From the NCBI GenBank assembly GCA_019239875.1, contig JAFAZI010000169.1, forward strand, positions 1 to 56,626: a DNA stretch of 56,626 nt, written 5' to 3'. Position numbers and translations under genes: made by a program. Every line of letters begins with the position of its first letter. The stretch's first letter is position 1. Shown here piece by piece: positions 6,417 through 23,924 of this stretch. The notes under the pieces are model-generated. The model saw only the letters and a list, made by a program, of their open reading frames with translations. It did no database searches and was not told the origin of the DNA. Source of the DNA: Frankiaceae bacterium (GTDB taxonomy: Bacteria > Actinomycetota > Actinomycetes > JAFAQI01).

Positions 6417-7876
6417 CCGAAGTGCTCGGCTGCCAGCAGCTGCTGGTGGGCGGCAAGCTGGTCGATGCCCGCGAGGGTGCAGTCTTCGAAACCGTCAACC
6501 CGGCGACTGAGGAGGTGCTCGGCGTCGCGGCCGACGCGACCGCCGCCGACATGGACGACGGGATTGCCGCCGCGCGGGCGGCGTTCGACACCGAGGCCTG
6601 GTCCAGCGACCCGGCGTTGCGGGCGCGATGCATCCGGCAGCTGCGCGACGCGCTCCAGTCGCACGCGGAGGAGCTGCGGGCGCTGACCGTCGCCGAGGTC
6701 GGCGCGCCGGTGATGCTCACCTCCGGCGCGCACCTCGAAGGGCCGATCGCCGATCTCGGCTGGGCGGCCGACCTGGCCGAGAGCTATGAGTGGACGACCG
6801 ATCTCGGTATCGGCGACACGATGGGCATCGCCAGCCGCCGCCGCATCGTTCGTGAGGCGGCTGGCGTCGTCGGTGCGATCACGCCATGGAACTTCCCGCA
6901 CCAGATCAACTTCGCAAAGCTGGGGCCCGCGCTGGCGGCGGGCTGTGCCGTCGTACTGAAGGCAGCGCCCGACACGCCATGGTGCGCGTCGACAGTCGGC
7001 CGAATCATCGCCGAGGAGACGGACATCCCGCCGGGCATCGTCAACGTCATCACGAGCTCCGACCACCAGCTCGGCGCCCAGCTGGCGACTGACCCGCGAG
7101 TGGACATGGTGAGCTTCACGGGCTCGACGGCGACCGGACGGTCGGTGATGGCGGCGGCGGCGCTGACCCTGAAGCGCGTCTTCCTCGAACTCGGCGGCAA
7201 GTCTGCGTTCCTGGTCCTTGACGACGCCGACGTCGCAGCGGCCTGCGGCTTCGCGGCCTTCTCCGGCATCATCCATGCCGGTCAGGGCTGCGCCATCACG
7301 ACCCGGATCCTGTTGCCCCGCCGTCGATTCGACGAGGGTGTCGAGCTGATGGCGGCGACGATGGCATCGATCGGCGTCGGCGACCCGACCGACCCCGCAA
7401 CGGTCTGCGGTCCGCTGATCTCGGCGCGCCAACGGGATCGGGTCGAGGGCTATCTGGCCGACGCGATCGACCAGGGTGGCAGCTTCGCCTGCGGTGGCAG
7501 CCGGGCAGACCGCGACCAGGGGTTCTTCATCGAGCCGACGCTCGTCGTCGGCGTCGACAACTCCGCCACGATCGCGCAGGAGGAGGTGTTCGGACCGGTG
7601 CTCGTCGCAATCCCGCATGACGGAGATGACGACGCGGTCCGGCTCGCCAACGACTCGCCTTACGGCCTGTCAGGCGCGGTGTACGGCGGCGATCTGGATC
7701 GGGCAGTGGGCGTGGCCGGGCGAATCCGCACCGGGACGGTCGGCGTCAACGGTGGACTTTGGTACGCCGCGGACGTGCCGTTCGGCGGCTACAAGCAGTC
7801 CGGCCTCGGTCGGGAGATGGGCGTCCAGGGTTTCGAGGAGTACCTCGAGACCAAAGCCATTGCCGTGCCGGCGTAG
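6413..7876 (+). CDS. NAD(P)-dependent aldehyde dehydrogenase (Rv0768/aldA-like)
   Basis: A 487-residue ALDH that oxidises an aldehyde to the acid. Visible elements are the PWNFP loop with Asn160, Lys183 in VLKAAPDTP for cofactor binding, FTGST at about 235-239, the general base Glu259 in LELGGKS, and the nucleophile Cys293 in GQGCAITTR. The GTG at 6413 overlaps the previous stop (GTGA) and gives the family length. In M. tuberculosis the counterpart Rv0768 is transcribed away from the CYP51 genes, but here it is part of the same run. It would logically process an aldehyde formed by the P450/SDR steps. Confidence 0.92.
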   Translation: MTEVLGCQQLLVGGKLVDAREGAVFETVNPATEEVLGVAADATAADMDDGIAAARAAFDTEAWSSDPALRARCIRQLRDALQSHAEELRALTVAEVGAPVMLTSGAHLEGPIADLGWAADLAESYEWTTDLGIGDTMGIASRRRIVREAAGVVGAITPWNFPHQINFAKLGPALAAGCAVVLKAAPDTPWCASTVGRIIAEETDIPPGIVNVITSSDHQLGAQLATDPRVDMVSFTGSTATGRSVMAAAALTLKRVFLELGGKSAFLVLDDADVAAACGFAAFSGIIHAGQGCAITTRILLPRRRFDEGVELMAATMASIGVGDPTDPATVCGPLISARQRDRVEGYLADAIDQGGSFACGGSRADRDQGFFIEPTLVVGVDNSATIAQEEVFGPVLVAIPHDGDDDAVRLANDSPYGLSGAVYGGDLDRAVGVAGRIRTGTVGVNGGLWYAADVPFGGYKQSGLGREMGVQGFEEYLETKAIAVPA

Positions 7877-7885
7877 GGGACAGCA

Positions 7886-8635
7886 GTGGGGAGCTTCGAC
7901 GGCAAGGTGGCGATCGTCACCGGTGCGGCACGAGGTATCGGCGAGGGCTACGCGCGCGCCCTGGCCGCAGCCGGTGCCTCGGTCGTGGTGGCCGACCTGA
8001 ACGCAGAGCTCGGTGAGCAGGTCGCGACGAGCATCGAAGCAGCGGGCGGTACCGCGACCTACGTCGCCGTGGACGTCTCGAGTCCGGCCTCGACGGCGGC
8101 TCTCGCGGACGCGACGGCGGAGCGGTACGGCGGCATCGACTACCTCGTGAACAACGCCGCAATCTACGGCGACATGCAGTTCGACGTGCTGATCAACGTC
8201 GACTGGGAGTACTACCGCACGTTCATGAGCGTGAATCTCGACGGCGCGTTGCTGTGCACCCGCGCGGTCTGGCGCGCGATGCGTGACCGCGGCGGCGGCG
8301 CAATCGTCAACCAGAGCTCGACCGCCGCGTGGACGTACTCCGGCTTCTACGGACTTGCGAAGGTCGGCATCAACGGCCTGACCCAGCAGCTCGCCCACGA
8401 GCTCGGGTCGATGAACATCCGGGTCAACGCCATCGCTCCGGGGCCGATCGACACCGAGGCGACGCGGGCGGCGGTCGGCGACATGGTCAAGCCGGTCATC
8501 GATGCGATGGCGATCAAACGGATCGGCACGCCTGCTGATCTGGTCGGGACCTGCCTGTTCCTGCTCTCCGACGAGGCACGCTGGTTGACCGGGCAGATCG
8601 TGAACGTCGATGGGGGGCAGGTGTTCCGTAGTTGA
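7886..8635 (+). CDS. Short-chain dehydrogenase/reductase (Rv0769-like)
   Basis: A 249-residue SDR. It has TGAARGIG (residues 12-19) for cofactor binding, NNAAIYG after strand 4, a catalytic Ser in NQSSTA, YGLAK with the catalytic Tyr and Lys, and a C-terminal TGQIVNVDGG typical of classical SDRs. The GTG start lies nine bases after the aldehyde dehydrogenase stop. The order ALDH-SDR-dehydrogenase-decarboxylase-like is the same as Rv0768-Rv0771. Substrate unknown. Confidence 0.9.
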   Translation: MGSFDGKVAIVTGAARGIGEGYARALAAAGASVVVADLNAELGEQVATSIEAAGGTATYVAVDVSSPASTAALADATAERYGGIDYLVNNAAIYGDMQFDVLINVDWEYYRTFMSVNLDGALLCTRAVWRAMRDRGGGAIVNQSSTAAWTYSGFYGLAKVGINGLTQQLAHELGSMNIRVNAIAPGPIDTEATRAAVGDMVKPVIDAMAIKRIGTPADLVGTCLFLLSDEARWLTGQIVNVDGGQVFRS

Positions 8636-9483
8636 GCGAGTTCGGCGTGGCGATGATCGGGCTCGGCCAGATCGGGGGAGAGATGGCGAACCATCTCCTC
8701 GAGTGGCCCGGCGGCTTCACCGTGTACGACGTCAGGGCCGAGGCTATGACGCCCTTCGCCGAGAAGGGTGCCCACGCCGCGGCCGACCTGGCGGAGGTCG
8801 CCAGCCGCGCGCGCGTCATATCGATCGTGGTGCTCAACGACCAGCAGGTGAGGGAGGTCGTCGACGAACTGCTGCCGGCTGCCGAGCCCGGCACCGTCAT
8901 CGCGATCCATTCGACGATCGAGGCGCAGACGGCCGTGGACCTCGCCGGCACGGCTGCATCCCACGGTGTCCATGTCGTCGATGCGCCGATCTCCGGCGGG
9001 TTCATGGGGGCGGCGCAGGGGCGGCTCGCCGTGATGGTGGGTGGTGAGGCGGCGGCCTACGAGCGGGCCGAACCGGTGTTCAGGAAATGGGCGGCACTGC
9101 CGATGCATCTCGGCCCGGCGGGTGCCGGCACCCGCATGAAGATCGCCCGCAACCTGATCACCTTTGTCGGCTACGCGGCAGCACATGAGGCGGAGCGGCT
9201 TGCCGCTGCGGCTGGACTCGACGTCTCCAAGCTCGGTGCGGTGGTCCGTCACTCGGATGCGATCACCGGCGGCGCCGGCGCTGTCATGCTGCGCTCGTCG
9301 ACCGCGCCGTACGGACCGGAGGACGGGCTGCGGTCGATCTTCGAGCACACTCGCGAGTTGGGGGAGAAGGACCTCTCGTTGGCCGTGGCGCTCGGCGACT
9401 CGCTTGACATCGACCTGCCGCTCAGCACCCTTGCCCTGTCCCGCCTTGCCGAGGCACTCGGCGTACCTCACGAGGAGACCTGA
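8632..9483 (+). CDS. Beta-hydroxyacid dehydrogenase family protein (Rv0770-like)
   Basis: A 283-residue NAD-dependent enzyme of the 3-hydroxyisobutyrate/6-phosphogluconate dehydrogenase family. The nucleotide motif is GLGQIGGEMA near the N-terminus. The substrate-binding loop reads DAPISGGFMGAAQGRLAVMVGG, and the helix with the family's catalytic Lys reads MKIARNLITFVGYAAAHEA. The TTG start at 8632 overlaps the SDR stop by four bases. A GTG at 8647 is possible but would cut into the first strand. Its neighbour downstream overlaps by one base. Confidence 0.87.
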   Translation: MSEFGVAMIGLGQIGGEMANHLLEWPGGFTVYDVRAEAMTPFAEKGAHAAADLAEVASRARVISIVVLNDQQVREVVDELLPAAEPGTVIAIHSTIEAQTAVDLAGTAASHGVHVVDAPISGGFMGAAQGRLAVMVGGEAAAYERAEPVFRKWAALPMHLGPAGAGTRMKIARNLITFVGYAAAHEAERLAAAAGLDVSKLGAVVRHSDAITGGAGAVMLRSSTAPYGPEDGLRSIFEHTRELGEKDLSLAVALGDSLDIDLPLSTLALSRLAEALGVPHEET

Positions 9484-9878
9484 TGAGTGACGAGCGCCGC
9501 AAGCGCGGTATGGAGACCATGGGTCGGGTGTACGCCTGGGGGACCGTGCCGGATCTGCCCGGCGACTACTTCGACATCACCGCGTCGCATTTGTTCGGCG
9601 ACATCTGGAATCGTGAAGGGCTGTCCGTCCGTGACCGGCGCCTGCTGTTGTTCGGCGCCATCGCAGCGCTGGGGGAGGCAAGCGTCCTCCCGGTCCAGAT
9701 CGACGCTGCCCTTGCCAATGACGAGCTGAGCGCCGATCAGCTCCGCGAGATCGCGATCTTCCTCACTCACTACATCGGCTGGCCCCGCGGTGCCGCATTC
9801 AACAACCTCGTCGAGGCCCGGATCTCCAGTCACAAGGGGAGCGGGACGCAGCAGGAGTTCCCGGGCCCCAAATCCTGA
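9483..9878 (+). CDS. Carboxymuconolactone decarboxylase/AhpD-like protein (Rv0771-like)
   Basis: A 131-residue all-helical protein of the CMD family (FGDIWNREGLSVRDRRLLLFGAIAALG, then FLTHYIGWPRGAAFNNLVEA). The Cys pair used by AhpD peroxidases is absent, and a His (LTHYIGWP) remains, as in true CMD proteins. It ends the CYP51 cluster. The equivalent gene Rv0771 ends the M. tuberculosis set. It probably acts on a lactone or ring-cleavage product, but the reaction is not known. Confidence 0.85.
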   Translation: MSDERRKRGMETMGRVYAWGTVPDLPGDYFDITASHLFGDIWNREGLSVRDRRLLLFGAIAALGEASVLPVQIDAALANDELSADQLREIAIFLTHYIGWPRGAAFNNLVEARISSHKGSGTQQEFPGPKS

Positions 9879-10010: not shown

Positions 10011-10083
10011 CATCGGGCGCGAGTCGCCGCGATCGACGTCGCACATCCTCTGCCACATGCACCCAGCCGAAAAGGAAGCGACT

Positions 10084-11247
10084 GTGAGAAGTAAAACCAA
10101 GGCCCGACTCGGCGTCGTCGGGCTCGGCGCGATCGTGGTGTCCGTTGCGGCCACGTTGCCCGCCCACGCGGACTATGCACCAAGCCCCTCTGACATCGTC
10201 GGCGTGGGCGGTGACACGCCACAGTTCGACCTGGCCTTCGCGGCCGACGGGGACACGAACGGCGACGCGGGCTTCAACGCTGCCGGCGCTTACAACCGTC
10301 TGGTCACCTTCAACGCGACCGCCGACGGCAACGCCCGTGCCGCGTACAAGAACGGCAGCACGCTGGGCTCACCGGCCAACCTGAACCCGACCGTCACGCT
10401 GCGGGCGGGCACCAGCCCGGTCCAGCGCGTGCAGAGCAGCGGCGCGGCCCTGTCGGCGCTCCTGGCGGACACCGGCTCGCCCGAGACGATCAACTTCGTG
10501 TTCAGCGCGAGCCGCCCGACGAGCGCCCAGCAGGCACAAGCCGGCACCAACGGCTGGGGATTCCTGCACGTCGTGCAGATCGGCAAGGACAACGTCGAGT
10601 TCATGGCCGCGAACAATTCGCACGCTCCCGCCGGGCTGTCCATCCAGGAGCTGTTGGCGATCTACAAGGGCACGATCACCCAGTGGAACCAGCTTCCGGG
10701 CAACTCGGGCGGCTCCTCCGCGACCATCGTCCCGCTGATTCCCCCGTCGAGCTCGTCGATCACCAAGACCTTCCTTGCGGACCTCAAGACCGCCAACGGA
10801 GGCACCGCTCCGACCCTGTCCTCCGCCGTGAAGACCGTCGAGCAGAACGACCCGAGTGCCATCACCGGCGCGCCGAACCCGCTCGACGCGATCGTGCCGA
10901 CCTCCAGCGCACGGATCGACCTCTACGCGAGTGGCTACTTCCACGACCCCGACACCGTCTTCCCCGGCGGAGCGGTGATCAACCCGGGCGTCACCCTCGT
11001 CGAGGGCAACCCCGGCGACGGCAACACTCCCTACCAGTCGAACGTCGATCACTACGTGATCTTCCGGCAGAGCGACGCGAACTCGTCGACTCCGATGGAG
11101 CCGGGCGGCTCGAAGAACTTCGTGCAGACGCTGTTCTCGAACCCGAGCGCGCCGACCTCGCCGTTCTTCGCGAAGTCGACCGGTAAGGCGCTGGTGGCGG
11201 CTGCGGGGGCCACGCCGTTCTACGCAGATCTGGGCAACGTCACCTAG
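10084..11247 (+). CDS. Secreted PstS-like periplasmic-binding-fold protein (divergent)
   Basis: A 387-residue exported protein. GTG 10084 follows a good ribosome site (AAGGAAG, 5-base spacing) and gives a standard signal peptide ending at AHA-DY. A longer start at 10057 would put a charged tail before it. The body resembles the phosphate-binding protein fold: QELLAIYKGTITQWNQLPG corresponds to the FTGTITNWN region of PstS, and NVDHYVIFRQSD to a later strand. The usual phosphate loop (RSDGSGT) is replaced by PPSSSSITK, so phosphate is unlikely to be the ligand. No lipobox or membrane anchor, so it is freely secreted. A strong hairpin follows. Confidence 0.75.
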   Translation: MRSKTKARLGVVGLGAIVVSVAATLPAHADYAPSPSDIVGVGGDTPQFDLAFAADGDTNGDAGFNAAGAYNRLVTFNATADGNARAAYKNGSTLGSPANLNPTVTLRAGTSPVQRVQSSGAALSALLADTGSPETINFVFSASRPTSAQQAQAGTNGWGFLHVVQIGKDNVEFMAANNSHAPAGLSIQELLAIYKGTITQWNQLPGNSGGSSATIVPLIPPSSSSITKTFLADLKTANGGTAPTLSSAVKTVEQNDPSAITGAPNPLDAIVPTSSARIDLYASGYFHDPDTVFPGGAVINPGVTLVEGNPGDGNTPYQSNVDHYVIFRQSDANSSTPMEPGGSKNFVQTLFSNPSAPTSPFFAKSTGKALVAAAGATPFYADLGNVT

Positions 11248-11401: not shown

Positions 11402-13129
11402 ATGAACCGAATCATGAGGACAGCGGCGACGCTGGTGCTCAGCACCGTCGCTGCGGGTGGGGTCTTCGCAAGCTTCGCGCCGAGCGCGTCCGCGGCGGGC
11501 AACCCGCCGTGGGAGCCGGATCCGAGCTCCGCCGGCGGCCTGAGCTTCTACGACAGCGCCGGTAACCAGATCGCCGGCGGCAGCATCAACGACTCGCCCA
11601 TCGCGGCGTTCGTCCAGGGTGCGACCACGCTTCGCGCCGGAGACACGAAGGCGACGTTGTTCGCCTACACCCCGGTCGCGGGCACATCACCAGGCACTTG
11701 GAGCGGCGAGGCGTTGTCGAGCTCGACGCCCTATCCCAACTCCTCCGCGCCCGGCTCCCTCGGCACCTCTACGCTGCCGCTCGTCTCCGGTGCGTCGGGA
11801 GACGAGACTTTCGCGACCTACATCTCCGACTTCCCGAACACGGACACCAGTGCTGATGGCTACGCCGGGCTGTACCAGCTGCGGCTCAAGACTTCGGCCA
11901 CCGGCAAGCCGATCACGACGTCGTATGACTCCGTCGACATCCAGGTGACCGGAAACAACTGGTCGATCGTCTACCCGGCCGTCGCTGCGACACCGACGAC
12001 CACGACGCTGACCACCACGCCGGGTAGCCCGCAGGAAGCGGGCACGACCGTCACTCTTCACGCGTCCGTGAGCCCGGCCGTCGCTGGCACCGTGCAGTTC
12101 AAGGACGGGTCCACCAACATCGGCAGTCCGGTGACAGTGACCTCCGGTGCGGCCTCGATCGACACGAGCACGCTGTCGGTGGGCACCCACTCCCTGCATG
12201 CAGTGTTCTCCCCGACCTCCGCGTTCTACACCGGGTCGACGGGTGACGCGAGCTTCACGGTCACTGCTCCGCCGGCGGCCGGCACCACGACGGCGCTGTC
12301 GGTCAACCCGACGACGGCACCCGCCTTCACATCGGTTGCGCTCACCGCGAATGTCGTGAAGACGAGCAACAGCAACCCGCTGGGTGCGTCGGACGGCTCG
12401 GTGAAGTTCTTCGACAACGGCACGACGCTGCTCGGCTCGGCGAACCTCGATTCGAGTGGTACGGCGAGCATCAACTACGCCGCGTTCACTGTCGGCTCGC
12501 ACTCCATCACGGCGAAGTTCGTCCCGGCCGACGCCGCGACGTACGCGACGTCCACGTCTCCGGCGGTGCCGTTCACGGCCACCCAGCCAACGTCGACGCC
12601 GCATGCCCAGACCGTCGATGTCTCGATCCCGGCGGGCTCGCTGACCATCACGACTCCGTACGACACCACCAACCCGTTCCACCTGGGGAACGCGCAGCTG
12701 GACCCGAAGCACTCGAAGTTCACGGCCAGCAACGCATTCGGCGACAACGCCAACCCGGCCAACGGCGTGTCGATCACGGACACCCGTGCGGGCAACCAGG
12801 CATGGACGGCATCTGCGACCGTGACCGACTTCACGGACGGCAGTTCCGATGTGATCAACGGTCAGAACCTCACGTTCACCGGCCTCACCGTTGGCTACGT
12901 GCAGGGTGACGCGCTGCAGTCAGGCGTGACCGCGACCGACGTCACGAACAGTGCCATATACGCTCCGAGCGACTCTGGTTCGGACGGCCTCAAGGGTGGT
13001 CCGCACGCGTTCGCGACCACGCCACACGGCGACGGCTCCGTCTTCATCGACGGCCTGCTGAAGCTGGTGGCACCGACGTCAACCCCCGCCGGCACCTACA
13101 CGGCGACGTTGACCTTCACCATCGCCTGA
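11402..13129 (+). CDS. Secreted surface protein: shared N-domain, Ig-like repeats, WxL-like C-terminus
   Basis: A 575-residue exported protein (signal peptide to about residue 31, ASA-AG). Residues ~33-197 form a domain shared with the proteins at 14329 and 15220 (NPPWEPD ... GGLSFYDSAG ... GDTKATL ... WSGEA ... YPNSSAPG). Two bacterial Ig-like domains follow (~197-393; GTVQFKDGST and GSVKFFDNGT mark equivalent strands). The last ~175 residues resemble a WxL domain: an early AWTASATVTDFTDG block and the ending GTYTATLTFTI, where classical members read YTATLTW. WxL domains attach non-covalently to the cell wall. The next gene encodes a DUF916-like WxL partner, which supports this reading. The ATG follows AGGA at 4-base spacing. 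Confidence 0.75.
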   Translation: MNRIMRTAATLVLSTVAAGGVFASFAPSASAAGNPPWEPDPSSAGGLSFYDSAGNQIAGGSINDSPIAAFVQGATTLRAGDTKATLFAYTPVAGTSPGTWSGEALSSSTPYPNSSAPGSLGTSTLPLVSGASGDETFATYISDFPNTDTSADGYAGLYQLRLKTSATGKPITTSYDSVDIQVTGNNWSIVYPAVAATPTTTTLTTTPGSPQEAGTTVTLHASVSPAVAGTVQFKDGSTNIGSPVTVTSGAASIDTSTLSVGTHSLHAVFSPTSAFYTGSTGDASFTVTAPPAAGTTTALSVNPTTAPAFTSVALTANVVKTSNSNPLGASDGSVKFFDNGTTLLGSANLDSSGTASINYAAFTVGSHSITAKFVPADAATYATSTSPAVPFTATQPTSTPHAQTVDVSIPAGSLTITTPYDTTNPFHLGNAQLDPKHSKFTASNAFGDNANPANGVSITDTRAGNQAWTASATVTDFTDGSSDVINGQNLTFTGLTVGYVQGDALQSGVTATDVTNSAIYAPSDSGSDGLKGGPHAFATTPHGDGSVFIDGLLKLVAPTSTPAGTYTATLTFTIA

Positions 13130-13136
13130 GAAATCG

Positions 13137-13172
13137 CCGGGTGGGGCGGGCCAAACGGCCCGCCCCACCCGG
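13137..13172 (+). terminator. Strong hairpin terminator after the WxL-like gene
   Basis: A perfect 16-bp stem starting CCGGGTGGGGCGGGCC with an AAAC tetraloop, seven bases after the stop. Confidence 0.75.
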
Positions 13173-13196
13173 AACGAACCGCTATGCTTACCCAAA

Positions 13197-13210
13197 ACTT
13201 GATAAAGTTA
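13197..13210. promoter_or_regulatory. AT-rich inverted repeat before the DUF916-like gene
   Basis: AACTT-GATA-AAGTT lies in an unusually AT-rich island (about 13195-13245) within a GC-rich genome, after the terminator and 80-95 bases before the ATG at 13292. Probably part of the promoter or an operator. No factor can be named. Confidence 0.35.
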
Positions 13211-13291
13211 ATCCACTCAACCGTCTGAACGGACTAACTAATGTACGTGGCGGCCGCGCACCGCGCACGCGAGCCGCGCCCCGAGGGGCGC

Positions 13292-14332
13292 ATGACGTCG
13301 TTTGGCGTCCGTGCGGCCGTGGTCGTCGCGATCACCGGCAGCAGCCTCGCCGTCGCCGGCTTCGCCGCCTCGTCGGCCTCGGCCAAGTCGCGGGTCAGCT
13401 TCGGTATCGAACCGGCATCCGCCAGCAAGCCCGACGCTCGGCCCAACCTCGACATCGGGGCCACCCCCGCCGCCCGCCTGTCCGATCACGTCGCGGTCCT
13501 GAACTACTCCGCGCAGCCGTTGCGCCTGCAGGTCTACGCAACCGATGCGGTCAACACCGCAACCGGTGGCTTCAGCCTCCTCCCGCAGCATCGCAAGCCG
13601 GTCGATGTGGGCAGCTGGGTGGCGATCCCGCGGCGCTTCTCGACGGTGAACGTCCCCGCGGCGGTCGCTGGCCGCCCCGGCCGGGTGATCGTCCCTGTCG
13701 CCATCAGCGTCCCGGCCACCGCGAGTCCCGGTGACCATGTCGGCGGCGTCGTTGCCTCATTGCGCACCGTCGGCCAGAACACGAGCGGGCAGAACGTCGT
13801 CCTCGACCAGCGGATCGCCACGCGACTGTTCGTGCGGGTTGCCGGCGAACTCCATCCCGCCCTCACGATCAGCAACGTTCACACGCACTACGACGGCACG
13901 CTGAACCCAGTCGGTCATGGCGGGGTCACGGTCTCCTACGACATCCGTAACGCGGGCAACGTGTCGATGGGCGTGCGAGAAGCGGTGAGTGCCGCCAGCT
14001 TGTTCGGCTCGAAATCCGCAGCGCCGTCAAAGACCGTCCCTCTGCTGCTTCCCGGTGACACCCTCCACGAGTCCGCCCACGTGGGCGGTATCTGGCCGCA
14101 GATCTTCGACCATGCCGTGGTCACCGCCACGCCCCTCGCCCCCCAGGGAGGATCCGATCCGGGGCTCGCCCCGCAGTCGGTCTGGAGGCGCGTGTGGGCC
14201 GTGCCGTGGCCGCTCATCTCGCTGCTCGCGCTCCTAGCGGCCGTCGCGTTCGGGTACCGGCGGTATCTGTCGGACCGGGTCCGTGCGTTCACGCGCCGCC
14301 CCGGCCGTCGGCATCGTGAGGCGACCGCGTGA
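13292..14332 (+). CDS. DUF916-like (WxL-partner) membrane-anchored protein
   Basis: A 346-residue exported protein: signal peptide (VAGFAASSASA), then a domain opening VSFGIEPASASKPDARPNLDIGA that matches the start of DUF916, the peptidoglycan-binding domain that accompanies WxL proteins in Firmicutes. A second beta domain (LHPALTISNVHTHY...) may be the counterpart of DUF3324. It ends in one membrane helix (~305-325) and a cytosolic Arg-rich tail. ATG 13292 is preceded by GAGGGG. An upstream in-frame start (13241) would add a charged leader before the signal peptide. It overlaps the next gene by four bases. Confidence 0.75.
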   Translation: MTSFGVRAAVVVAITGSSLAVAGFAASSASAKSRVSFGIEPASASKPDARPNLDIGATPAARLSDHVAVLNYSAQPLRLQVYATDAVNTATGGFSLLPQHRKPVDVGSWVAIPRRFSTVNVPAAVAGRPGRVIVPVAISVPATASPGDHVGGVVASLRTVGQNTSGQNVVLDQRIATRLFVRVAGELHPALTISNVHTHYDGTLNPVGHGGVTVSYDIRNAGNVSMGVREAVSAASLFGSKSAAPSKTVPLLLPGDTLHESAHVGGIWPQIFDHAVVTATPLAPQGGSDPGLAPQSVWRRVWAVPWPLISLLALLAAVAFGYRRYLSDRVRAFTRRPGRRHREATA

Positions 14333-15186
14333 TCACAAGTCGCGGCCTCGTGGCCGGTCTCCTCGCGGTCGGGACAGTCCTCGCGGTCGGTATCTCGCCG
14401 GCGGCGGCAACGGGCCAGACGCCGCCGTACCAGGACCAGCAGCAGAACGGCTACCTCGGGTTGTGCGATCGCCACGGCCATCAGATCACCGAGGGCAGCG
14501 TCACTACCAAGCCCTTTGCCTGGCGGGCGGTCTCCTCGGTCGCGGCAAAGCCGCCGTACGACGGCCCGGGTCGCACAGCGGTCCTGATGGCCTACCAGCC
14601 GCGTGAGGGCCTCGACGCTGGGCAGTGGAGCGGTCAGCAGCTGACCGCATCGAGTCGCTACACCGATCCTGCGCACCCGATGGCGGCCGCCACCGCGGGC
14701 GATGACTCGCTTGCGGACTTCACCGCCAACTTCCGGCCGATGTGGGACGGGTTCATCCAGGTCCGGATGTACCTCGGCGAGCCGCAGAAGCCGACGTACT
14801 CCTACTCCTACCCTGCGCTGAACATCCAGATCACCGGCAACACCTGGCATGCGGTCGGCGGCGGGCGGGTTTCCTGCACCGCAGGGCGCGCGATCTCGAT
14901 CGAGTCGATCCTGCTGCCGCGCAGCGAGACCAAGGCGAGGTCCGGCACGCATGGCACCAAGGCGACAAGCGGTCCGGCGGCGAACTCGAAGCACAAGACC
15001 TCGTCGCACTCATCTCGGCCACGACCGGGTCCCTCGCCCCACACCTCTCTCACCCCGGCCGCGAGCGCGTCAGGCTCGGCCGGCCACGACCACGGCGTCG
15101 CGATCGGAGCGGTCGTCGTCGCGGCGCTGCTCGGCGCGGGTGTCGTTCTCGCTCTTCGTCGTCGCGGTCACTCCGGTGCCGCATAA
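14329..15186 (+). CDS. Secreted, membrane-anchored protein with divergent copy of the shared N-domain
   Basis: A 285-residue protein: signal peptide ending AAA-TG, a ~150-residue domain (GQTPPYQDQQQNG ... AGQWSGQQLTASSRY ... LNIQITGNTWHAV) that is a diverged relative of the domain in the 11402 and 15220 products, then a Ser/Lys/Pro-rich linker, and a C-terminal membrane helix (VAIGAVVVAALLGAGVVLALRRRG). The GTG start overlaps the DUF916-like stop, so the two are made together. It could hold the secreted copies at the membrane through like-to-like contacts, which is inference. Confidence 0.7.
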   Translation: MITSRGLVAGLLAVGTVLAVGISPAAATGQTPPYQDQQQNGYLGLCDRHGHQITEGSVTTKPFAWRAVSSVAAKPPYDGPGRTAVLMAYQPREGLDAGQWSGQQLTASSRYTDPAHPMAAATAGDDSLADFTANFRPMWDGFIQVRMYLGEPQKPTYSYSYPALNIQITGNTWHAVGGGRVSCTAGRAISIESILLPRSETKARSGTHGTKATSGPAANSKHKTSSHSSRPRPGPSPHTSLTPAASASGSAGHDHGVAIGAVVVAALLGAGVVLALRRRGHSGAA

Positions 15187-15219
15187 CCGCCCAGTGAATC
15201 AACAGAAAGGTCATTGACC

Positions 15220-16365
15220 ATGAAGCTCACGATCCGCCGCGCCGCGCTCTCGGCAGCGGCCGTCGCGGTGGCCGGCAGCGCGTTGCTGGTGACCGGTTCG
15301 ACCGCTCACGCGACGACGACCCCGCCATGGGAGCCTGACTCGAGCTCTTCGGGTGGGCTGCTGTTCTACAACTCGTCCGGCACTCAGATCACCGGGGGGA
15401 ACATCTCCGACGGCCCGATCGCCGCCTACGTCCAGGGAACGACCACGATTCGACAGGGCGACACGAAAGCCACCCTCTACGGTTACCTTCCGGTCAGCGG
15501 TCAGGTGCCGGGGCAGTGGTCGGGCGAGGCGATGAGCGCCTCGACGGTTTACCCGAACTCCTCGGCGCCCGGCGCCCTCGGCACCTCGACGCTCCCGCTG
15601 GTCACCGGAGCGTCGGATGACGAAAGCGTTGCGACCCTCGCAGCCGACTACCCGAACAACTCCACGACGGATGGCTACAAGGGCGTCTACCAGCTCCGGC
15701 TCAAGACGACCGCTGCCGGCCAGCAGCCGAACGTGACCTACGACTCCGCCGACATCCTGATCACCGGGACAACGTGGTCAGTGCTCTACTCACAGTCGCC
15801 CGCGACTCCCACCACGACAGCCCTCGCGGTCTCGACGCCTGCGGCATTCCACGGCGATGATGTGGGCTTGCAGGCGACCGTGACCCCATCGGCCGCGACG
15901 GGGACGGTGCAGTTCAAGGACAGCGGGACGGTCATCGCGACCTCCCCGGTGTCCGGTGGTGTCGCCACGACTGTTACGAGCGATCTGTCGGACGGCACGC
16001 ACACCCTGACCGCCACCTTCGTGCCTGACTCGGGTGCCTACAAGGGATCGACGTCTCCGGCGAAGCATGTCACGGTCTCGCCGCATCCGACCAAGACCAA
16101 GCTGAAGGCGTCGAGCAAGACCGTCAAGGCGGGAAAGAAGCTCACGCTGACCGCGAAGGTCGCCCCCAAGTCGGCGGCCGGCAAGGTGACCTTCTTGGAT
16201 GGCAAGTCGAAGCTGGCCAAGGTGAAGGTCAAGCACGGCAAGGCTGTCCTCAAGACGAAGCTCTCGAAGGGCAAGCACAAGCTCGTCGCCAAGTTCAAGC
16301 CGAAGCATGCCGATGATTTCGCCGCCTCCACCTCGAAGAAGGTCAAGGTGAAGGTCAAGGCCTGA
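15220..16365 (+). CDS. Secreted protein with shared N-domain and Lys-rich Ig-like repeats
   Basis: A 381-residue exported protein (signal peptide AHA-TTT). Residues ~30-195 are a close copy of the 11402 N-domain (PPWEPDSSSSGGLLFYNSSG, TTIRQGDTKATLYGY, YPNSSAPGALGTSTLPL). Two Ig-like domains follow. The second is extremely Lys-rich (about one residue in four) and has no cysteine, which suggests binding to acidic wall polymers. ATG 15220 sits 9 bases after GAAAGG. A TTG two codons upstream is less likely. It lies 33 bases after the previous stop and ends the first half of the surface cluster. Confidence 0.75.
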   Translation: MKLTIRRAALSAAAVAVAGSALLVTGSTAHATTTPPWEPDSSSSGGLLFYNSSGTQITGGNISDGPIAAYVQGTTTIRQGDTKATLYGYLPVSGQVPGQWSGEAMSASTVYPNSSAPGALGTSTLPLVTGASDDESVATLAADYPNNSTTDGYKGVYQLRLKTTAAGQQPNVTYDSADILITGTTWSVLYSQSPATPTTTALAVSTPAAFHGDDVGLQATVTPSAATGTVQFKDSGTVIATSPVSGGVATTVTSDLSDGTHTLTATFVPDSGAYKGSTSPAKHVTVSPHPTKTKLKASSKTVKAGKKLTLTAKVAPKSAAGKVTFLDGKSKLAKVKVKHGKAVLKTKLSKGKHKLVAKFKPKHADDFAASTSKKVKVKVKA

Positions 16366-16418: not shown

Positions 16419-16617
16419 GCGCGCCGCAGCGCTCCGGGGGAGGGAGCGGGTCGGAGAAGGCGCCGTTTGGTGGCGTTTCTTACTCCAGATGCCCGCTCCC
16501 TCCCGATCTTTTCGAGGTACGCTTGATTTTGAGTAAGTCGACCAAACCGCTTAACTCGCCCGATTGGATCAGTTCGATGCTCGCCCAGCCCCCGATCCGC
16601 GCTATCCAGGAGTTCAC

Positions 16618-17451
16618 GTGACCGCCACGCTTTCGGCTGCCCATGATCTGCCGGCGGCCGGGGAAGAGCGCCGTGGGCCGGCCCGCCTCGACGCACTCGA
16701 GATCTCGGCATGGTTCGGCTCCACGCAGGTGCTCGATACCGTCAGCCTGTCGATGCCGCCGGCGACCGTCACCGCGCTGATCGGGCCGTCGGGCTGTGGG
16801 AAGTCCACGTTCCTGCGCATCCTCAACCGGATGCATGAGTCGATCGCCGGTGCCCAGCTGGCCGGGGAGGTGCACCTCAACGGCGTTGACATCTACACCC
16901 CTGGTTACCGCGTCACGCACGCCCGCAAACGCATCGGCATGGTGTTCCAGAAGCCGAACCCGTTCCCCGCAATGTCGATCGCTGACAACGTCACGGCCGG
17001 CCTGGGCCTGACGGGTCGGAAGATCAGCCGCTCCGACAAGGCCAGTCTCGTCGAGGACTGCCTGGCCCGGGCCGGCTTGTGGGCCGAGGTGAAGGATCGG
17101 CTCGACCGTCCGGGTTCCGCGCTGTCCGGCGGTCAACAGCAGCGCCTCTGCATCGCGAGAGCGCTTGCGATCGGGCCGGAAGTGTTGCTGATGGACGAGC
17201 CCTGCTCGGCGCTGGACCCCACGTCCACGAGGCGCGTCGAGGAGACCATCCACGACCTGCGTGAAGAAGTGACGATCGTGATCGTCACGCACAACATGCA
17301 GCAGGCCGCTCGCGTCTCCCAGCAGACTGCCTTCTTCCTCGCGGAGGCCAACACGCCGGGCGGCATCGTGGAGAGCGGCCCGACGACACAGATCTTCGGG
17401 AACCCCTCCGACCCGCGCACGGCTGATTACGTGAACGGTCGATTCGGATGA
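16618..17451 (+). CDS. pstB: PstB-family ABC transporter ATPase
   Basis: A 277-residue ATPase that powers uptake through the PstC/PstA channel. Walker A is GPSGCGKST, the Q-loop region is [10 protein letters not shown], the signature is LSGGQQQRL, Walker B is [12 protein letters not shown], and the switch His lies in VIVTHNM. All are intact. The chosen GTG 16618 follows AGGAG at 5-base spacing. A TTG at 16564 would add 18 residues. The gene overlaps pstC by four bases. Family membership is clear, but the solute is not, because the associated binding proteins have lost key phosphate residues. Confidence 0.9.
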
Positions 17452-18458
17452 CCATCGCAAGCCAGGGGGGGCCGGTCACGCCCAGGCGTACGCCGCGTCA
17501 GCTGTCACCGGGCCTGGAGCCGACCGACCGAATCTTCGAGGGATTCTCGCTGGGCATCGGTGCGTTCGTGCTCATTCTCACGGGCGCGGTCGGTCTCTTC
17601 CTCGGCCTCGAATCGATCCCGACGTTCCGCCACTACGGCTTTCACTTCTTCACGACGGTCGACTGGAATCCCGAACTGGACAAGGTCGGGATCGCGGCCG
17701 TCCTGCTCGGCACCTTTGAGGTGGCGCTCGTCGCCATGGTGGTGTCCTTCCCGCTCGCACTCGCATTCGCCCTGTTCATCAGTGACTACGCACCCAAGTG
17801 GCTCAAAGGCTGGCTGATCTCAGCGGTCGACCTGATGGCGGCAGTGCCGAGCATCATCTATGGCATCTGGGGTTTCTACCTGCTGAAGCCGCATGCCATG
17901 AATCTGGCGCGTTGGCTGTCCCAGCACTTCGGCTGGTTCCCGCTGTTCCACGTGAACACCGACCCGAACGCCGCCGTCTGGCAGCAGTCCCAGTACACGA
18001 GTTCCGCCTTCATCGCCGGACTGGCCGTGTCGATGATGGCGATCCCGCTCGCCTGCGCAGTGATGCGAGCGGTCTTCGACCAGGCGCCACTCGGTGAGCG
18101 CGAGGCCGCCATGGCGCTCGGCGGCACCCAGTGGGGGGTCGTGAAGACCGTCGTCCTGCCGTTCGGCAAGGGCGGCATCATCGGTGGGACGATGCTCGCG
18201 CTCGGGCGCGCGCTCGGCGAAACGGCGGCGGTCGCGATCATCCTGTCGCCCGCTTACATCCTTTCGCCGCGCATCCTGCAGTCCGGCGCGCAGACGACGT
18301 CCGGCCTGATCGCGTCGAACTTCGGCAACGCGTCGCAGTCGCAGCTGTCGGCACTGCTCACCGCCGGGTTCGTGCTGTTCGTCATCACCCTGATCGTCAA
18401 CAGCACTGCGGCGTTCGTCATCGGACGCAGTCGTAGCGGCGCGGCGACGGAGATCTGA
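17448..18458 (+). CDS. pstC: PstC-family ABC transporter permease
   Basis: A 336-residue permease with six predicted membrane helices and the EAA loop [22 protein letters not shown] that docks onto the ATPase. [14 protein letters not shown] near the end is typical of PstC. Start ATG 17448 overlaps pstB (ATGA), and the stop shares one base with pstA. A loop of ~35 residues before helix 4 ([22 protein letters not shown]) faces outward. Confidence 0.9.
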
Positions 18459-19564
18459 TGACGACCACGTCGACCATCAGCCAGCCGCCGGCGCCGTCCC
18501 TTCCTGCGGCCACGGCGGCCCGCCGTCCGACGCCACGGAAGATCCGCGTCTACACCTTCGACGACTGGATGTCGCTCACCGGATCGCTGCTGTCGTCCTT
18601 CGTGCTGGTCGACATCGTCTACGAGCACCTGCTGGACGGCAGCGGGACCCTCGGCTTCCTTGTCGTCTGGTACCTGGCCTTCCTCATGCTCTACGCAGCC
18701 GTGGTCGGCCTGTCGAACTCGCGCCCATTCGTGGTCGACCGCCTGGTCACCACTGCGCTCTGGGCGGCTGCCGGCGTCGTGATCTTCGCCCTCATGTCGA
18801 CGGTGCTTTACACAGTTCTCAAGGGGCGCCACGCATACGTGCACTCCAACTTGTTCACCCAGACCGCCGCCGGTGTGGCGCCCTCAGCACCGCTGTCCCA
18901 GGGCGGCGCGCTGCACGCGATCGTCGGGACGTTCGTCGAGGTCGGCCTCGCGATCGGGGTGTCGGTCCCGCTCGGCATCGGCACCGCCGTCTACATGTCC
19001 GAGGTCGGCGGTTCGTTCGCGCGAGTCGTCCGGACCGTGGTCGAGGCCATGACGGCACTGCCCGAGATCTTGGCGGGCCTCTTCGTCTACGCCTTCCTGA
19101 TCGTGCATGGCTTCCCCAAGAGCGGCATGGCAGCGTCGATCGCGATGGCGGTGACGATGATTCCGATCATCGCGCGCGCTGCCGAGGTCGCCCTGCGAGT
19201 GGTGCCGGGGGGCCTCCGCGAGGCGAGTCTCGCACTCGGCGCTTCGAAGTTCCGCACCGTGCGCAAGGTCGTGCTCCCGAGCGCTCGCGCCGGGCTGGCA
19301 ACCGCGACGATCCTCGGCGTCGCGCGCGGGGTCGGCGAGACCGCGGTGGTGCTGATCTGCTCCGGCGCGAGCACGTTCATGGAGGTCAACCCGGTCAAGA
19401 ACCCGATGAACTCCCTCCCGCTCTACATCTTCACCGCCGTCAAGACCGGCGACCCCAGCCAAGCCATCCGAGCCTTCGGTGCCGCGAGCATCCTCCTGGT
19501 GCTCGTTCTCGCGCTGTTCGTCGCGACCCGACTGCTCTCCCGCGACAAGGCGGTTCAACGATGA
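18458..19564 (+). CDS. pstA: PstA-family ABC transporter permease
   Basis: A 368-residue permease. It has a Pro/Ala-rich cytosolic N-terminus, an extra pair of membrane helices (~50-115) before the usual core, the EAA loop LREASLALGASKFRTVRKVVLP and GVARGVGETAVVLI. It is longer than most PstA proteins (about 280-300 aa) because of the N-terminal extension. It pairs with PstC and overlaps the next gene by four bases. Confidence 0.88.
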   Translation: MTTTSTISQPPAPSLPAATAARRPTPRKIRVYTFDDWMSLTGSLLSSFVLVDIVYEHLLDGSGTLGFLVVWYLAFLMLYAAVVGLSNSRPFVVDRLVTTALWAAAGVVIFALMSTVLYTVLKGRHAYVHSNLFTQTAAGVAPSAPLSQGGALHAIVGTFVEVGLAIGVSVPLGIGTAVYMSEVGGSFARVVRTVVEAMTALPEILAGLFVYAFLIVHGFPKSGMAASIAMAVTMIPIIARAAEVALRVVPGGLREASLALGASKFRTVRKVVLPSARAGLATATILGVARGVGETAVVLICSGASTFMEVNPVKNPMNSLPLYIFTAVKTGDPSQAIRAFGAASILLVLVLALFVATRLLSRDKAVQR

Positions 19565-21252
19565 TGAAACTCCGTGCTCTCGCAGCGGTCGCGATCGCCG
19601 CGCTCGCCGCTGCGCCTGGCCTGACCGCCGTGGTTCCAGCGCAGGCGGCCGCCACCCACACGCTGATCCAGGGTTCCGGCTCGAGCTGGGCGGCCAACGC
19701 GGTCAACCAATGGGTAGCGGATGTCCACCAGCAAGGCATGCAGGTCGTCTACAGCCCCAGCGGTGACGCGACCGGTCGGCAGGACTTCGCGAACAAGACC
19801 TCTGACATGTCGGTGACATCGCTCGGGTACCAGGGTCGTGACCCCCTCACCGGAGTGCCCGACACGTCGCAGGGCCGGCCGTACGCCTACCTGCCGATCG
19901 CGGCCGGTGGCACGGCCTTCCCTTACCAGCTGCGCTACGCGGGGCAGCAGGTGCGCAATCTGCGACTGTCCGGTTCGACGCTGGTCGGCATCTTCACCGG
20001 CACGATCACGAACTGGAACGACAAGGCGATCACCGCCGACAACAACGGACACGCTCTTCCTTCGTTGCCGATCACTCCGGTGGTGCAGTCCGAGGGGTCA
20101 GGTTCGACTGCGCAGCTCACCAAGTACTTCGACAGCCAGTACAAGCAGCAGTGGGTTGCGTTCAGCGGCCGTGACACGTTCACGGAGTACTACCCGAACA
20201 TCGGCAAGGGCAAGGGCGCCAACTTCATCGGTGCGAACGGCTCTGACCAGGCAATGAACTACGTGTCGTCGCGACAGGCGAACGGATCGATCGGGTACGT
20301 CGAGTACTCCTACGCGCTGAGCCAGAACTACCCGGTCGCAAAGCTGCTCAACAAGTCTGGCTACTACACGCTCCCGACGCAGTACAACGTGGCGGTCGCG
20401 CTCGAGAAGGCGCAGATCAACATGGACAAGAGCTCGCCGAACTACCTGTTGCAGGACCTGACCCACGTCTACACGGATCCCGACGTCCGGACCTACCCGC
20501 TCTCGTCGTACGTCTACATGATCGAACCCACCGGCAAGTACCCCTCGCCGGAGTCGAAGATCACGACGGCGAAGCGGCAGACGATCGCCGACTTCGCGTA
20601 CTACTCGATCTGCCAGGGTCAGAAAGAGATCGGCCCGATCGGGTACTCACCGCTCCCCGTCAACCTCGTCCAAGCGGGCTTCGGCCAGATCAACAAGCTG
20701 AAAGCGGCGGACTCGAGTGTGGATCTGACCAACCGCAACGTCAAGACCTGCAACAACCCGACGTTCATCAAGGGGCACCCGAACACCAACTACCTGGCGA
20801 AGATCGCGCCGAAGCCGCCGGCGTGCGACAAGCGGGGCAATGACCCGTGTGCCGACGGTGTGACGCCGACCGGCACCGACAATCCGCAACCGTCCTCGGG
20901 GCACAAGCACCACACCACGACCCCGGGCACCAACCCGAGCAGTCCCGCCACGTCCGGATCGGGCTCCGGGTCCGGCTCCGGCACGGGTGCGGGTGCCGGA
21001 ACGGGGCCCTCCGGGACTGGGGGAGCAGGTGTGGGCACTCAGGTCGACGCCAACGGGCAGCCGCTCGCCACGACGGGCACCGGCAGCGCGGCGGACGCCC
21101 CGGTCACCGTGCCCGCGGGCCTCGCGGGCTACCGGGCTGGACACCTGACCAAGATCTTGGCACCGCTGTGTGTGGTGCTGCTGATCCTGGCCTTGGTGCT
21201 GCCGCCCGTGATCGCCCACCGGATGTCCGCCAGACGGGGAGGGCCTCAGTGA
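19561..21252 (+). CDS. PstS-like binding protein with LATTG motif and C-terminal membrane anchor
   Basis: A 563-residue exported protein. Signal peptide to about residue 30 (AQA-AA), a PstS-type fold (LIQGSGSSWAANAVNQW; LVGIFTGTITNWNDKAI), then a Ser/Gly/Pro linker (~430-495), LATTG (502-506), a membrane helix (~531-551) and an Arg-rich tail. The phosphate loop reads VVQSEGSGST (174-183) where PstS has R-S-D-G-S-G-T, so the Arg and Asp that contact phosphate are Gln176 and Glu178. Family fold is clear, but the ligand probably differs. LAxTG is the class E sortase motif, but here it lies ~25 residues from the helix, longer than usual. Overlaps pstA by four bases. Confidence 0.85.
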   Translation: MMKLRALAAVAIAALAAAPGLTAVVPAQAAATHTLIQGSGSSWAANAVNQWVADVHQQGMQVVYSPSGDATGRQDFANKTSDMSVTSLGYQGRDPLTGVPDTSQGRPYAYLPIAAGGTAFPYQLRYAGQQVRNLRLSGSTLVGIFTGTITNWNDKAITADNNGHALPSLPITPVVQSEGSGSTAQLTKYFDSQYKQQWVAFSGRDTFTEYYPNIGKGKGANFIGANGSDQAMNYVSSRQANGSIGYVEYSYALSQNYPVAKLLNKSGYYTLPTQYNVAVALEKAQINMDKSSPNYLLQDLTHVYTDPDVRTYPLSSYVYMIEPTGKYPSPESKITTAKRQTIADFAYYSICQGQKEIGPIGYSPLPVNLVQAGFGQINKLKAADSSVDLTNRNVKTCNNPTFIKGHPNTNYLAKIAPKPPACDKRGNDPCADGVTPTGTDNPQPSSGHKHHTTTPGTNPSSPATSGSGSGSGSGTGAGAGTGPSGTGGAGVGTQVDANGQPLATTGTGSAADAPVTVPAGLAGYRAGHLTKILAPLCVVLLILALVLPPVIAHRMSARRGGPQ

Positions 21253-23924
21253 GAGTGCGTGCCACCACGCTCGCCGCCACGGGTGTGCTCGTCTCCGCCG
21301 TGATCACCGTGGCGGCGCCGATCTCGCACGCTGCGTCAACCGCTCGCGGCTCATCGGCGGTGAGCAAGCACAAGACCGTCTCCCGCACGAAGATCGTGGG
21401 CGGCAAGACAAAGACCGTCGACAAGCGAAAGATCACCCTGAAGGTCAGCCAGACCCACGACCTTCGTGGCCGCCAGGAGATCGATGTCTCCTGGTCGGGC
21501 GCCCATCCGACGGGTGGCATCGTCGCCGATCAGAACTCCATCGACGCGCAGCAGGAGGAGTATCCCTTCGTCCTGCTCGAGTGCCGCGGGCTGGACTCGA
21601 CGAAGGTGAAGAAGTCCGAGCGCATGTCCGAGAAGACCTGCTGGACGCAGGACTGGACTGAGCGCTACCAGGACACCTTCGCGACGCAGTTCCCGCCGTA
21701 CCGGCTCGACCAGTACGCCACGCCTGCCGAGCGAGCACAGGCCTACGGCGCTCCCGACCCCCTGCCGCAGGCCTGTCAGTTCCTGCCGGCAGCGGTTCAG
21801 CACTGGCTGCCCTTCGTGGCCGCCAACGGCCACGTTTACGAGGACGGGCCCGCAGGTTGCGCCGGCCAGCCGCCGGAATCACAGTCGGTCGGCGGGGGCG
21901 CGCTGCCCAGCAACGAGACCTTCGGCGTGACCGGCCTCGATGGGCGCGGCACCGCGCAGTTCGACGTCTGGACGTCCGCCGAGAACGCTTCTCTCGGCTG
22001 CACGCAGACCGTCGCGTGCTCGCTGGTCGCAGTGCCGATCATGGGGATCAGCTGTGACCCCGAGGCCGCGTCACTTCCCCCCGCAGATCGGCCGACCGGC
22101 AAGGCGGCGAAGAAGGCGGCGAAGCTCTGCGAGGCCAAGGGTGCCTTCGCGCCCGGACAGCTGGTGCATCCGCAGGGGCAGAACGACCTCACGGTCAGCG
22201 GCAGCTTGTGGTGGAGCGCCTCGAACTGGCGCAACCGGATATCGGTGCCGCTGACGTTCGCGGTGCCGTCGAACGCCTGTGACGTCGTGAGCAACAGCAA
22301 CACGGTCGACGTGTACGGCTCCGAGCTGCTCATCCAGGCCACCAGCCAGTGGGCTCCGCACTTCTGCTTGAACCCGAAGCTGTTCAAGTTCACGCACGTT
22401 CAGACCGGCGAGCCGGAGGCGGCGAACCTGCTCGCGACGAAGAGCGCGACGGCCGCCTTCGTGAGCAATCCGCCCGCCGCAGGGTACGGCCAGCCGGTCG
22501 TCAACGCCCCCGTAGCCGTGACGTCGTTTGCGATCACCTATTCCATCGACGGCGCGGACGGGCAGCCGTACACGAAGCTGCGCCTCACGCCGCGGCTGCT
22601 TGCCAAGCTGCTCACGGAGTCCTACCCGTCCGAGCTCCCCGTGCAGCAGGAGTTTGCTGCGCTGTCCCACAATCCACTCAACATCACCCTCGACCCCGAG
22701 TTCCAGAAGTTGAACCCGGGGATCACCAAGGGGGTGCCGGCTACGGAAGCGGCGGCCTCGTTGCTCACCCTGGCCAGTGACTCGGACGTGATCACGTCCC
22801 TGACGACCTACCTGAATGACGACCCGTCGACCCGTTCATGGCTGGACGGCAAGGCCGACCAGTGGGGGATGAAGGTCAATCCGGCGTACAAGGGCATCAA
22901 GCTGCCCGTCGACAAGTGGCCGCTGCTGTCGGGCTTCGAGCCAAAGGAGTGGTACGCCTCGGACGTCAACGACTGCCTCCACAACAGCCCGGTGCCGTTC
23001 CTCCCGCTCGTGGCCGCTCCGATGGCGCGGCTCGCGGAGATCACCGAGGCGATGCAGTTCTCGATCTCCCAGTCCACGACCGCCTGCTCCCAGATCGATG
23101 GCACGACCACTGGCGAGAAGCTGGTGCCGCTCGGGCGGCAGACGACGGGCTATCGGTTCATGATCGGCGTGACGTCGCTTCCGGATGCAGACCGTTATCG
23201 GCTGCGGACCGCTGCCATTCAGACGACCGACGCGCACACCTTCGTCCGACCGGATGACGCGTCGATGCGCGCCGCGGTCGGGTTCCTCAAGCCCGACACG
23301 AGCACGGGCACCTGGCCGGTGCCGATCAAGACACTGGTGACGAGCAAAAAGGCCGCGTCGGCGTACCCCGGCACCATGGTGGTTTACGCCTCCATGCCGA
23401 CCAGCGGCTTGTCGGCGACCGACGCGTCGGACTACTCGAAGCTGCTGAACTTCGTTGCGACCAAGGGCCAGCGACCCGGTCAGAAGGTCGGCGAGCTGCC
23501 ACCGGGATACCTTCCGATGACGGCGGCGAACGGCCTCGGCGGCCTCGCGTCGTACACGGTGGCCGCGGCCAAGGCCGTCGACGCGCAGAAGGGTGAGCTG
23601 CCCGCGCTGACTGGCAGCGGCGGCAAGCAGCCGGGTCACCACCAGAGCCCCCCGCCTACGCCGACCCCGTCGTCCTCGACCTCCACGCCGACCGGTTCGC
23701 AGAGCTCGTTGCCACCCGTCGCGCAGACCTCCGACAACCCGTCATCGAATCCTGGCCCGAGCGTCGCGACCGAGCCGGCGACGCCGGCGGCATCGTTGGG
23801 CAAGACGCTCGGTATCAGTCTCGGTAGCGGCGGCTTCATCATCCTGGTCATACTGGTCTTGACGCTGCTCGCCGGAGCCACTCCAGGCACGTACTTCGTC
23901 GGGCGTCGGCGAGGGTGGTGGTGA
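21249..23924 (+). CDS. Large secreted, membrane-anchored binding-protein-like protein
   Basis: An 891-residue protein: signal peptide (to about ISHA-AST), a Lys-rich stretch, an N-terminal beta domain with DLRGRQEIDVSWSGAHPTGG and several cysteines (CRGL, CWTQDW, CQFL, CAGQ), then from ~residue 390 a region with PstS-like features (APVAVTSFAITYSIDG, LRLTPRLLAKLLTESYP). A Pro/Ser/Thr linker precedes a single membrane helix (GFIILVILVLTLLAG) and RRRGWW. No LAxTG. GTG 21249 overlaps the previous stop, and the stop overlaps the sortase-like gene. It is likely a second, larger receptor or a scaffold of the same transporter. I cannot assign a ligand. Confidence 0.75.
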   Translation: MRVRATTLAATGVLVSAVITVAAPISHAASTARGSSAVSKHKTVSRTKIVGGKTKTVDKRKITLKVSQTHDLRGRQEIDVSWSGAHPTGGIVADQNSIDAQQEEYPFVLLECRGLDSTKVKKSERMSEKTCWTQDWTERYQDTFATQFPPYRLDQYATPAERAQAYGAPDPLPQACQFLPAAVQHWLPFVAANGHVYEDGPAGCAGQPPESQSVGGGALPSNETFGVTGLDGRGTAQFDVWTSAENASLGCTQTVACSLVAVPIMGISCDPEAASLPPADRPTGKAAKKAAKLCEAKGAFAPGQLVHPQGQNDLTVSGSLWWSASNWRNRISVPLTFAVPSNACDVVSNSNTVDVYGSELLIQATSQWAPHFCLNPKLFKFTHVQTGEPEAANLLATKSATAAFVSNPPAAGYGQPVVNAPVAVTSFAITYSIDGADGQPYTKLRLTPRLLAKLLTESYPSELPVQQEFAALSHNPLNITLDPEFQKLNPGITKGVPATEAAASLLTLASDSDVITSLTTYLNDDPSTRSWLDGKADQWGMKVNPAYKGIKLPVDKWPLLSGFEPKEWYASDVNDCLHNSPVPFLPLVAAPMARLAEITEAMQFSISQSTTACSQIDGTTTGEKLVPLGRQTTGYRFMIGVTSLPDADRYRLRTAAIQTTDAHTFVRPDDASMRAAVGFLKPDTSTGTWPVPIKTLVTSKKAASAYPGTMVVYASMPTSGLSATDASDYSKLLNFVATKGQRPGQKVGELPPGYLPMTAANGLGGLASYTVAAAKAVDAQKGELPALTGSGGKQPGHHQSPPPTPTPSSSTSTPTGSQSSLPPVAQTSDNPSSNPGPSVATEPATPAASLGKTLGISLGSGGFIILVILVLTLLAGATPGTYFVGRRRGWW

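Follow-up and report, generated by a model that had tools for sequence, protein, structure and literature searches.

The window analysed here, a 56,626-nucleotide contig of a Frankiaceae bacterium (JAFAZI010000169.1, assembly GCA_019239875.1), encodes three clustered surface proteins, at 11402, 14329 and 15214, which share an N-terminal domain for which we use the working name X. This domain of about 150–165 residues is real, coherent and undescribed in the libraries searched (Pfam, NCBIfam, PHROGs and PDB). Comparison between loci revealed that the X domains of the two secreted proteins are homogenised with each other within a locus, while the proteins that bear them remain otherwise different. 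The sharing of a single homogenised domain by such proteins suggests a single partner or ligand that both have to fit. We tentatively propose, at a little less than an even chance, that X serves as a common docking module in a surface assembly of actinobacteria, beside a Pst-type ATP-binding cassette (ABC) importer, to which solute-binding proteins would be presented.

Each of the three X copies directly follows a signal peptide in the open reading frame translations of the window, where all features given below lie on the forward (+) strand. The two long copies, located by genome and profile searches at 11498–11974 in the 11402 protein and at 15316–15789 in the 15214 protein, are about 65–66% identical. 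With the 15214 copy as query, the whole-genome search returned the 11402 copy at E = 3.1e-64 and the short copy of the 14329 protein (14416–14859) at E = 1.3e-7, with about 30–33% identity; the latter reaches 164 bits with a profile built from 23 X copies, in an alignment that runs end to end. A previous sequence-only reading of the window had recognised three N-terminal copies, two of them close and the membrane-anchored one diverged, and these results confirm it (65% versus about 30% identity). The cluster of three that it described is real but not the whole family, as a second three-copy set is found on contig C198 of the same genome and many homologous loci exist elsewhere. Of the motifs it had assigned to the domain, PPWEPD, GDTKATL and YPNSSAP mark the two close copies only and not the diverged 14329 copy. 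The family-wide invariants are instead an early Asp, the Gly of "T.GS", one Pro, the Arg of "Q.R" and the final Trp. Similarly, the statement that X heads otherwise different proteins holds for the C-termini, whose last 90 residues are 19% identical between the 11402 and 15214 proteins, but not for the region right after X, where both have Big_3_5 immunoglobulin-like (Ig) repeats. The novelty claimed for the domain stands, since profile or member searches gave no match above threshold in any of the four libraries. The best stray match was Pfam SSI (E 0.0085, below the SSI cut-off); SSI and DUF6024 were dropped as identities on account of their sub-threshold scores; HtaA, considered for a motif only, was dropped too.

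Homogenisation was examined in 14 loci with two long X copies; those of G006 and of G004, being on separate contigs, were matched by genome, and the first long copy of G053, which has no WxL-like domain, was classed by position. The X of the WxL-like protein and the X of the neighbouring Ig protein are sisters in 9 of the 14 loci, and a tree forcing the WxL-type copies together is rejected by the approximately unbiased test (p = 5.6e-33; p = 7e-12 for the same constraint with 7 loci). In 10 of the 14, the X of the WxL-like protein is nearer to its neighbour's X than to that of any other WxL-like protein, the exceptions being the window, its counterpart in G004, G038 and G053. Each of the two window copies has its closest relative in the G004 copy that corresponds to it, and for the window pair homogenisation is seen only at a deeper level. 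Outside X, paired proteins share 16–48% identity in their signal peptides and 13–39%, mostly about 20%, in their C-terminal 90 residues. Since the signal peptides differ between copies, the unit exchanged is X alone, and independent gene duplication was rejected as the source of the locus grouping because both signal peptides and C-termini differ. The clearest case is L034, the X locus of a Streptosporangiaceae metagenome-assembled genome, whose pair is 83–100% identical in DNA over most of X and near background outside it, with sharp edges at both ends of X and a minimum of 78% in any 60-base interval inside it. Indeed, residues shared by this pair are encoded by identical codons in 86% of cases, versus 55% expected; the excess is weaker in G006 (79 versus 66 expected). 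Recombination restricted to X is therefore observed directly in L034, and we infer the same restriction in the other loci.

The membrane-anchored copies form a second subfamily. They split from all long copies with a branch support of 100/99 in a tree of 29 copies and a Shimodaira–Hasegawa-like approximate likelihood ratio test value of 96 in a tree of 55, and the two types never mix. All 18 short copies have a cysteine at domain position 16–17 and a second one 6–8 residues past the domain, mostly within a C-G-S-E motif, whereas a cysteine within the first 30 residues is seen in just one of the 37 long copies; a disulfide may thus staple the short form. AlphaFold2 models, made with six sequences as input, are mostly beta for the long form (predicted local distance difference test score, pLDDT, 71.9; predicted template modelling score, pTM, 0.73) and better for the short one (pLDDT 78.8, pTM 0.79), with the same order of elements. 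Foldseek searches with these models returned no match at E ≤ 1e-3, with Ig-like sandwiches, Asf1 among them, as the closest resemblance (E 0.02, TM-score about 0.4), and a viral structure library gave no significant match. X is probably an Ig-like beta-sandwich, which we take as an indication from the models rather than as a result. Since such a fold is probable and a strongly diverged X-like domain precedes the WxL domain of another protein (L048, full-sequence E 5.9e-5), X may belong to a broader group of folds as one of its branches.

In the docking proposal, the membrane-anchored protein (X-TM) would sit in the membrane, the X-Ig-WxL protein would be held at the wall through its own WxL-like domain together with WxLIP, a membrane protein, and the X-Ig protein, secreted without an anchor of its own, would be recruited via X. 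The long pair would be kept alike by recombination because both copies must fit the same partner, most likely X-TM or PBP1, a secreted PstS-like protein, and the outcome would be a scaffold across the wall that presents solute-binding proteins to the importer. The common assembly interface suggested by the sequence-only reading fits if "interface" means one common partner; locus-wise homogenisation of the secreted pair makes that idea likelier, which leaves it strengthened but not proven, as a shared ligand predicts the same pattern. A more far-reaching version, in which X, present in three proteins and under continual homogenisation between two of these, docks the solute-binding proteins as well as a sortase-like protein that is catalytically dead onto the importer across the wall as a new surface machine, appears unlikely to us. 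As for the partner, a covariation test on 10 loci, with WxLIP against the WxL-like domain as positive control (a known pair type, r = 0.62), gave values with PBP1 of 0.70 for X-TM, 0.61 for X-WxL and 0.51 for X-Ig, and points weakly to PBP1 as the common partner. Several observations count against the proposal. Covariation between X-TM and long X is modest (r = 0.38–0.44) and exceeded by the PBP1 values, so that X-TM is not favoured as the sole partner, and the PBP1 values, from 10 loci, may themselves track locus phylogeny rather than interaction. In loci other than L034 and G006, synonymous sites approach saturation, so that homogenisation there is either old or partly parallel selection. 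Finally, the X genes of G053 have no PBPlong (a membrane-anchored protein of the cluster) and no pst genes detected nearby, and L052 and L058 are Pst-type clusters without detectable X; since such clusters occur without it, X is accessory.

The same homogenisation would be expected if X were a ligand-binding or adhesive tip, directed at a glycan, a mineral surface or a neighbouring cell and borne on different stalks, with recombination keeping its specificity equal. The N-terminal position of X on Ig-repeat stalks and its fast divergence between loci (often <50% identity) agree with such a role, as does the proposal that the N-terminal parts of large WxL proteins of Firmicutes are host- or polysaccharide-binding modules (PMC9772566, PMC1534035). 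However, X is also found on a membrane-proximal protein with a short linker only, Foldseek gives no carbohydrate-binding match for the X models, and no cluster of conserved aromatic surface residues is established; we consider a tip somewhat improbable. A purely structural role as an Ig-like cap or spacer, with no specific partner and with locus grouping caused by repeated local duplication of a signal-peptide-plus-cap module, would suit the generic beta-sandwich-like models and the Ig-rich context, but is clearly less probable again. Indeed, the dissimilar signal peptides indicate exchange of X alone, the differing C-termini and fixed position and order would require independent duplications to recur identically, and the separation of membrane-anchored from long copies is complete. 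Parallel selection without recombination is the least probable account of the locus grouping and seems to us very unlikely: codons at identical residues are near the codon-usage expectation outside L034 and G006, as convergence would predict, but the synonymous identity of L034 and its sharp edges at both ends of X speak against it.

The docking proposal also draws on a conserved gene neighbourhood. In the window, PBP1, a homologue of solute-binding proteins (PBP_like_2, 10057–11247; PF12849, E 2.5e-17), precedes the 575-residue X-Ig-Ig-WxL-like secreted protein (11402–13129; Big_3_5, E 4e-25), whose WxL-like C-terminal domain spans 12560–13126. The WxLIP/DUF916 homologue with a C-terminal transmembrane (TM) helix follows (13241–14332; true start possibly an internal ATG near 13292), and its stop is overlapped by 4 bases by the start of X-TM (14329–15186), which consists of the short X, the cysteine motif, a Ser/Pro/Thr-rich linker, a C-terminal TM helix and an Arg-rich tail. 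After the X-Ig secreted protein with its Lys-rich C-terminus (15214–16365; start TTG at 15214 or ATG at 15220) come a PstB-type ABC ATPase (16564–17451; PF00005, E 2.9e-33), PstC-type (17448–18458) and PstA-type (18458–19564) permeases (both PF00528), a PstS-like protein with a linker and a C-terminal TM helix (19561–21252; TIGR00975, E 8.8e-44), PBPlong, a large membrane-anchored protein with a PstS-like segment (21270–23924; TIGR00975, E 1.1e-4; start uncertain), and a sortase-like membrane protein (23915–25000; class E sortase, E 7.3e-14, 52 bits versus a cut-off of 160). Profiles of the neighbouring genes define the conserved module pstB-pstC-pstA-PstS(TM)-PBPlong(TM)-sortase-like-PBP1-[X-Ig-WxL-like]-[WxLIP]-[X-TM]-[X-Ig], in which PBPlong is a conserved element of X loci; in the window, the X half stands ahead of the pst half. 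The order from PBP1 to X-Ig is kept across many unrelated loci, PBP1 lies immediately upstream of the first X gene wherever the sequence covers that flank, and X-TM was recovered from all loci with sufficient sequence to either side, whether or not they have a WxL-like domain. Within the limits that contig ends set on co-occurrence counts, WxLIP and the WxL-like domain are either both present (about 13 loci) or both absent (the X loci L036, L037, L040 and L088). Upstream in the window (4007–9878) are genes named by eye as cytochrome P450, SnoaL-like, aldehyde dehydrogenase, short-chain dehydrogenase/reductase and NAD-binding dehydrogenase; an aldehyde dehydrogenase gene also adjoins the X cluster of L034.

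The X profile searches extended over the window's own phylum, and all counts include the window's genome. Carriers make up 7 of 60 relatives; in samples of 395 genomes from the class and 396 from the phylum, 16 and 3 carriers were found, respectively. The usual complement is two secreted copies and one membrane-anchored copy. No match was found in plasmids. A pattern scan of genome contigs, made with a closer subset since the family-wide alignment is too diverged for it, added only L034. Some carriers have unusual X proteins: G622 and G678 encode a fourth, far longer one with many Ig-like repeats (L090 6150–8636, L094 611–3076), and one at L085 4016–5938 ends in three repeats containing CRVFDTR in place of Ig repeats.

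The WxLIP protein at 13241 is, judged by its profile matches, a member of the WxL-interacting-protein family. The window copy alone matches Pfam weakly (E 0.046), but a homologue passes the WxLIP_PGBD cut-off (30.8 versus 27.3 bits), 8 of 9 family members match this model, and the family profile matches the solved EfmWxLIP1 of Enterococcus faecium (9i25/9i1y, E 2.6e-9). Sequence searches found Pfam DUF3324, the host-binding domain of WxLIP, in none of the 9 members. The window WxL-like domain (E 3.7e-5) scores 24.2 bits, just under the Pfam WxL cut-off of 25, and 6 of 11 members match (best E 1.2e-6). Most keep the D-x-R motif and the first Trp (DTRAG in the window), whereas the second W-x-L motif is replaced by F-T-[IV] (FTI in the window), so that the aligned members do not have the two W-x-L motifs of a WxL domain. 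For the Firmicutes proteins, an AlphaFold2 prediction has WxLIP binding WxL via a beta-strand (PMC10599100), and WxL proteins have been described almost wholly from Bacilli (PMC10599100, PMC1534035, PMC9772566). A WxLIP match occurs in 18 of 60 relatives, and WxLIP and WxL-like genes without a clear X are found in Actinomycetota (L048, L049, L050, L060, L061), some beside Pst-type genes.

On the transport side, the sortase-like protein has Lys or Arg in place of the catalytic His and Ser or Ala in place of the catalytic Cys in 14 of 14 loci (the window and 13 others), none of which thus keeps the catalytic residues of an active class E sortase. The His replacement is visible in the alignment to solved sortases; the Cys site was located via the TLxTC motif. 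The PstS-like protein at 19561 has Ser at the D56 site and Gln at the R135 site, two phosphate contacts (Escherichia coli PstS numbering), and so does not retain the phosphate-specific contact residues. Ser at D56 is shared by the window's subgroup and several other loci keep Asp but have His at R135, a site occupied by Gln or His in 6 of 7 loci. Since known phosphate-contact residues are altered, the solute of the importer may not be phosphate. This protein also carries LATTG about 30 residues before its TM helix. In the second cluster of the same genome, an extra Ig protein (L008 9056–10045, minus strand) ends in LPTSAG/MPMTG, a TM helix and an Arg-rich tail, a sorting-signal-like end beside a sortase-like protein without catalytic residues.

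Besides defining a family of domains, as yet without a name, whose genomic context is fixed, these results place bona fide WxLIP relatives and WxL-like proteins in Actinomycetota beside a transporter, and not in gut Firmicutes. They also offer, in homogenisation confined to one domain, a testable evolutionary sign that two secreted proteins share one partner. A routine annotation as "phosphate uptake plus sortase" would probably mislead for this locus, because the sortase-like protein lacks its catalytic residues and the PstS-like proteins are altered.

Compared with known systems, the cluster is, judged by gene content and profile matches, a version of the WxL/WxLIP surface cluster that belongs to Actinomycetota and is linked to an importer of the Pst type. 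As in the Csc clusters of Lactobacillales and Bacillales (PMC1534035, PMC9772566, PMC10599100), a WxLIP with a PGBD (DUF916) and a C-terminal TM helix stands beside a large multidomain WxL protein, and all products of the surface cluster are secreted or membrane-anchored. It differs from them in its actinobacterial host, in having one WxL-like protein in nearly all loci (two in G038) where a Csc cluster has at least two, in the loss of the second WxL motif and the missing DUF3324 match, and in carrying X in three proteins joined to an importer. The PstSCAB importer likewise groups pstB, pstC and pstA with PstS-family binding proteins, but here two membrane-anchored and one secreted PstS-like proteins are found and the phosphate contacts are altered. 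Class E sortases share a fold-level sequence match and membrane topology with the sortase-like protein, yet have the catalytic His and Cys that it lacks, and Ig-like beta-sandwich domains (Asf1, FnIII, CopC-like) show a weak overall fold likeness to the X models with neither sequence similarity nor a significant Foldseek match. Finally, a published parallel to the homogenisation of X with a shared partner is provided by the paralogues TLR1 and TLR6, which have TLR2 as their common partner and whose divergence is reported to be limited by gene conversion (PMC2077338).

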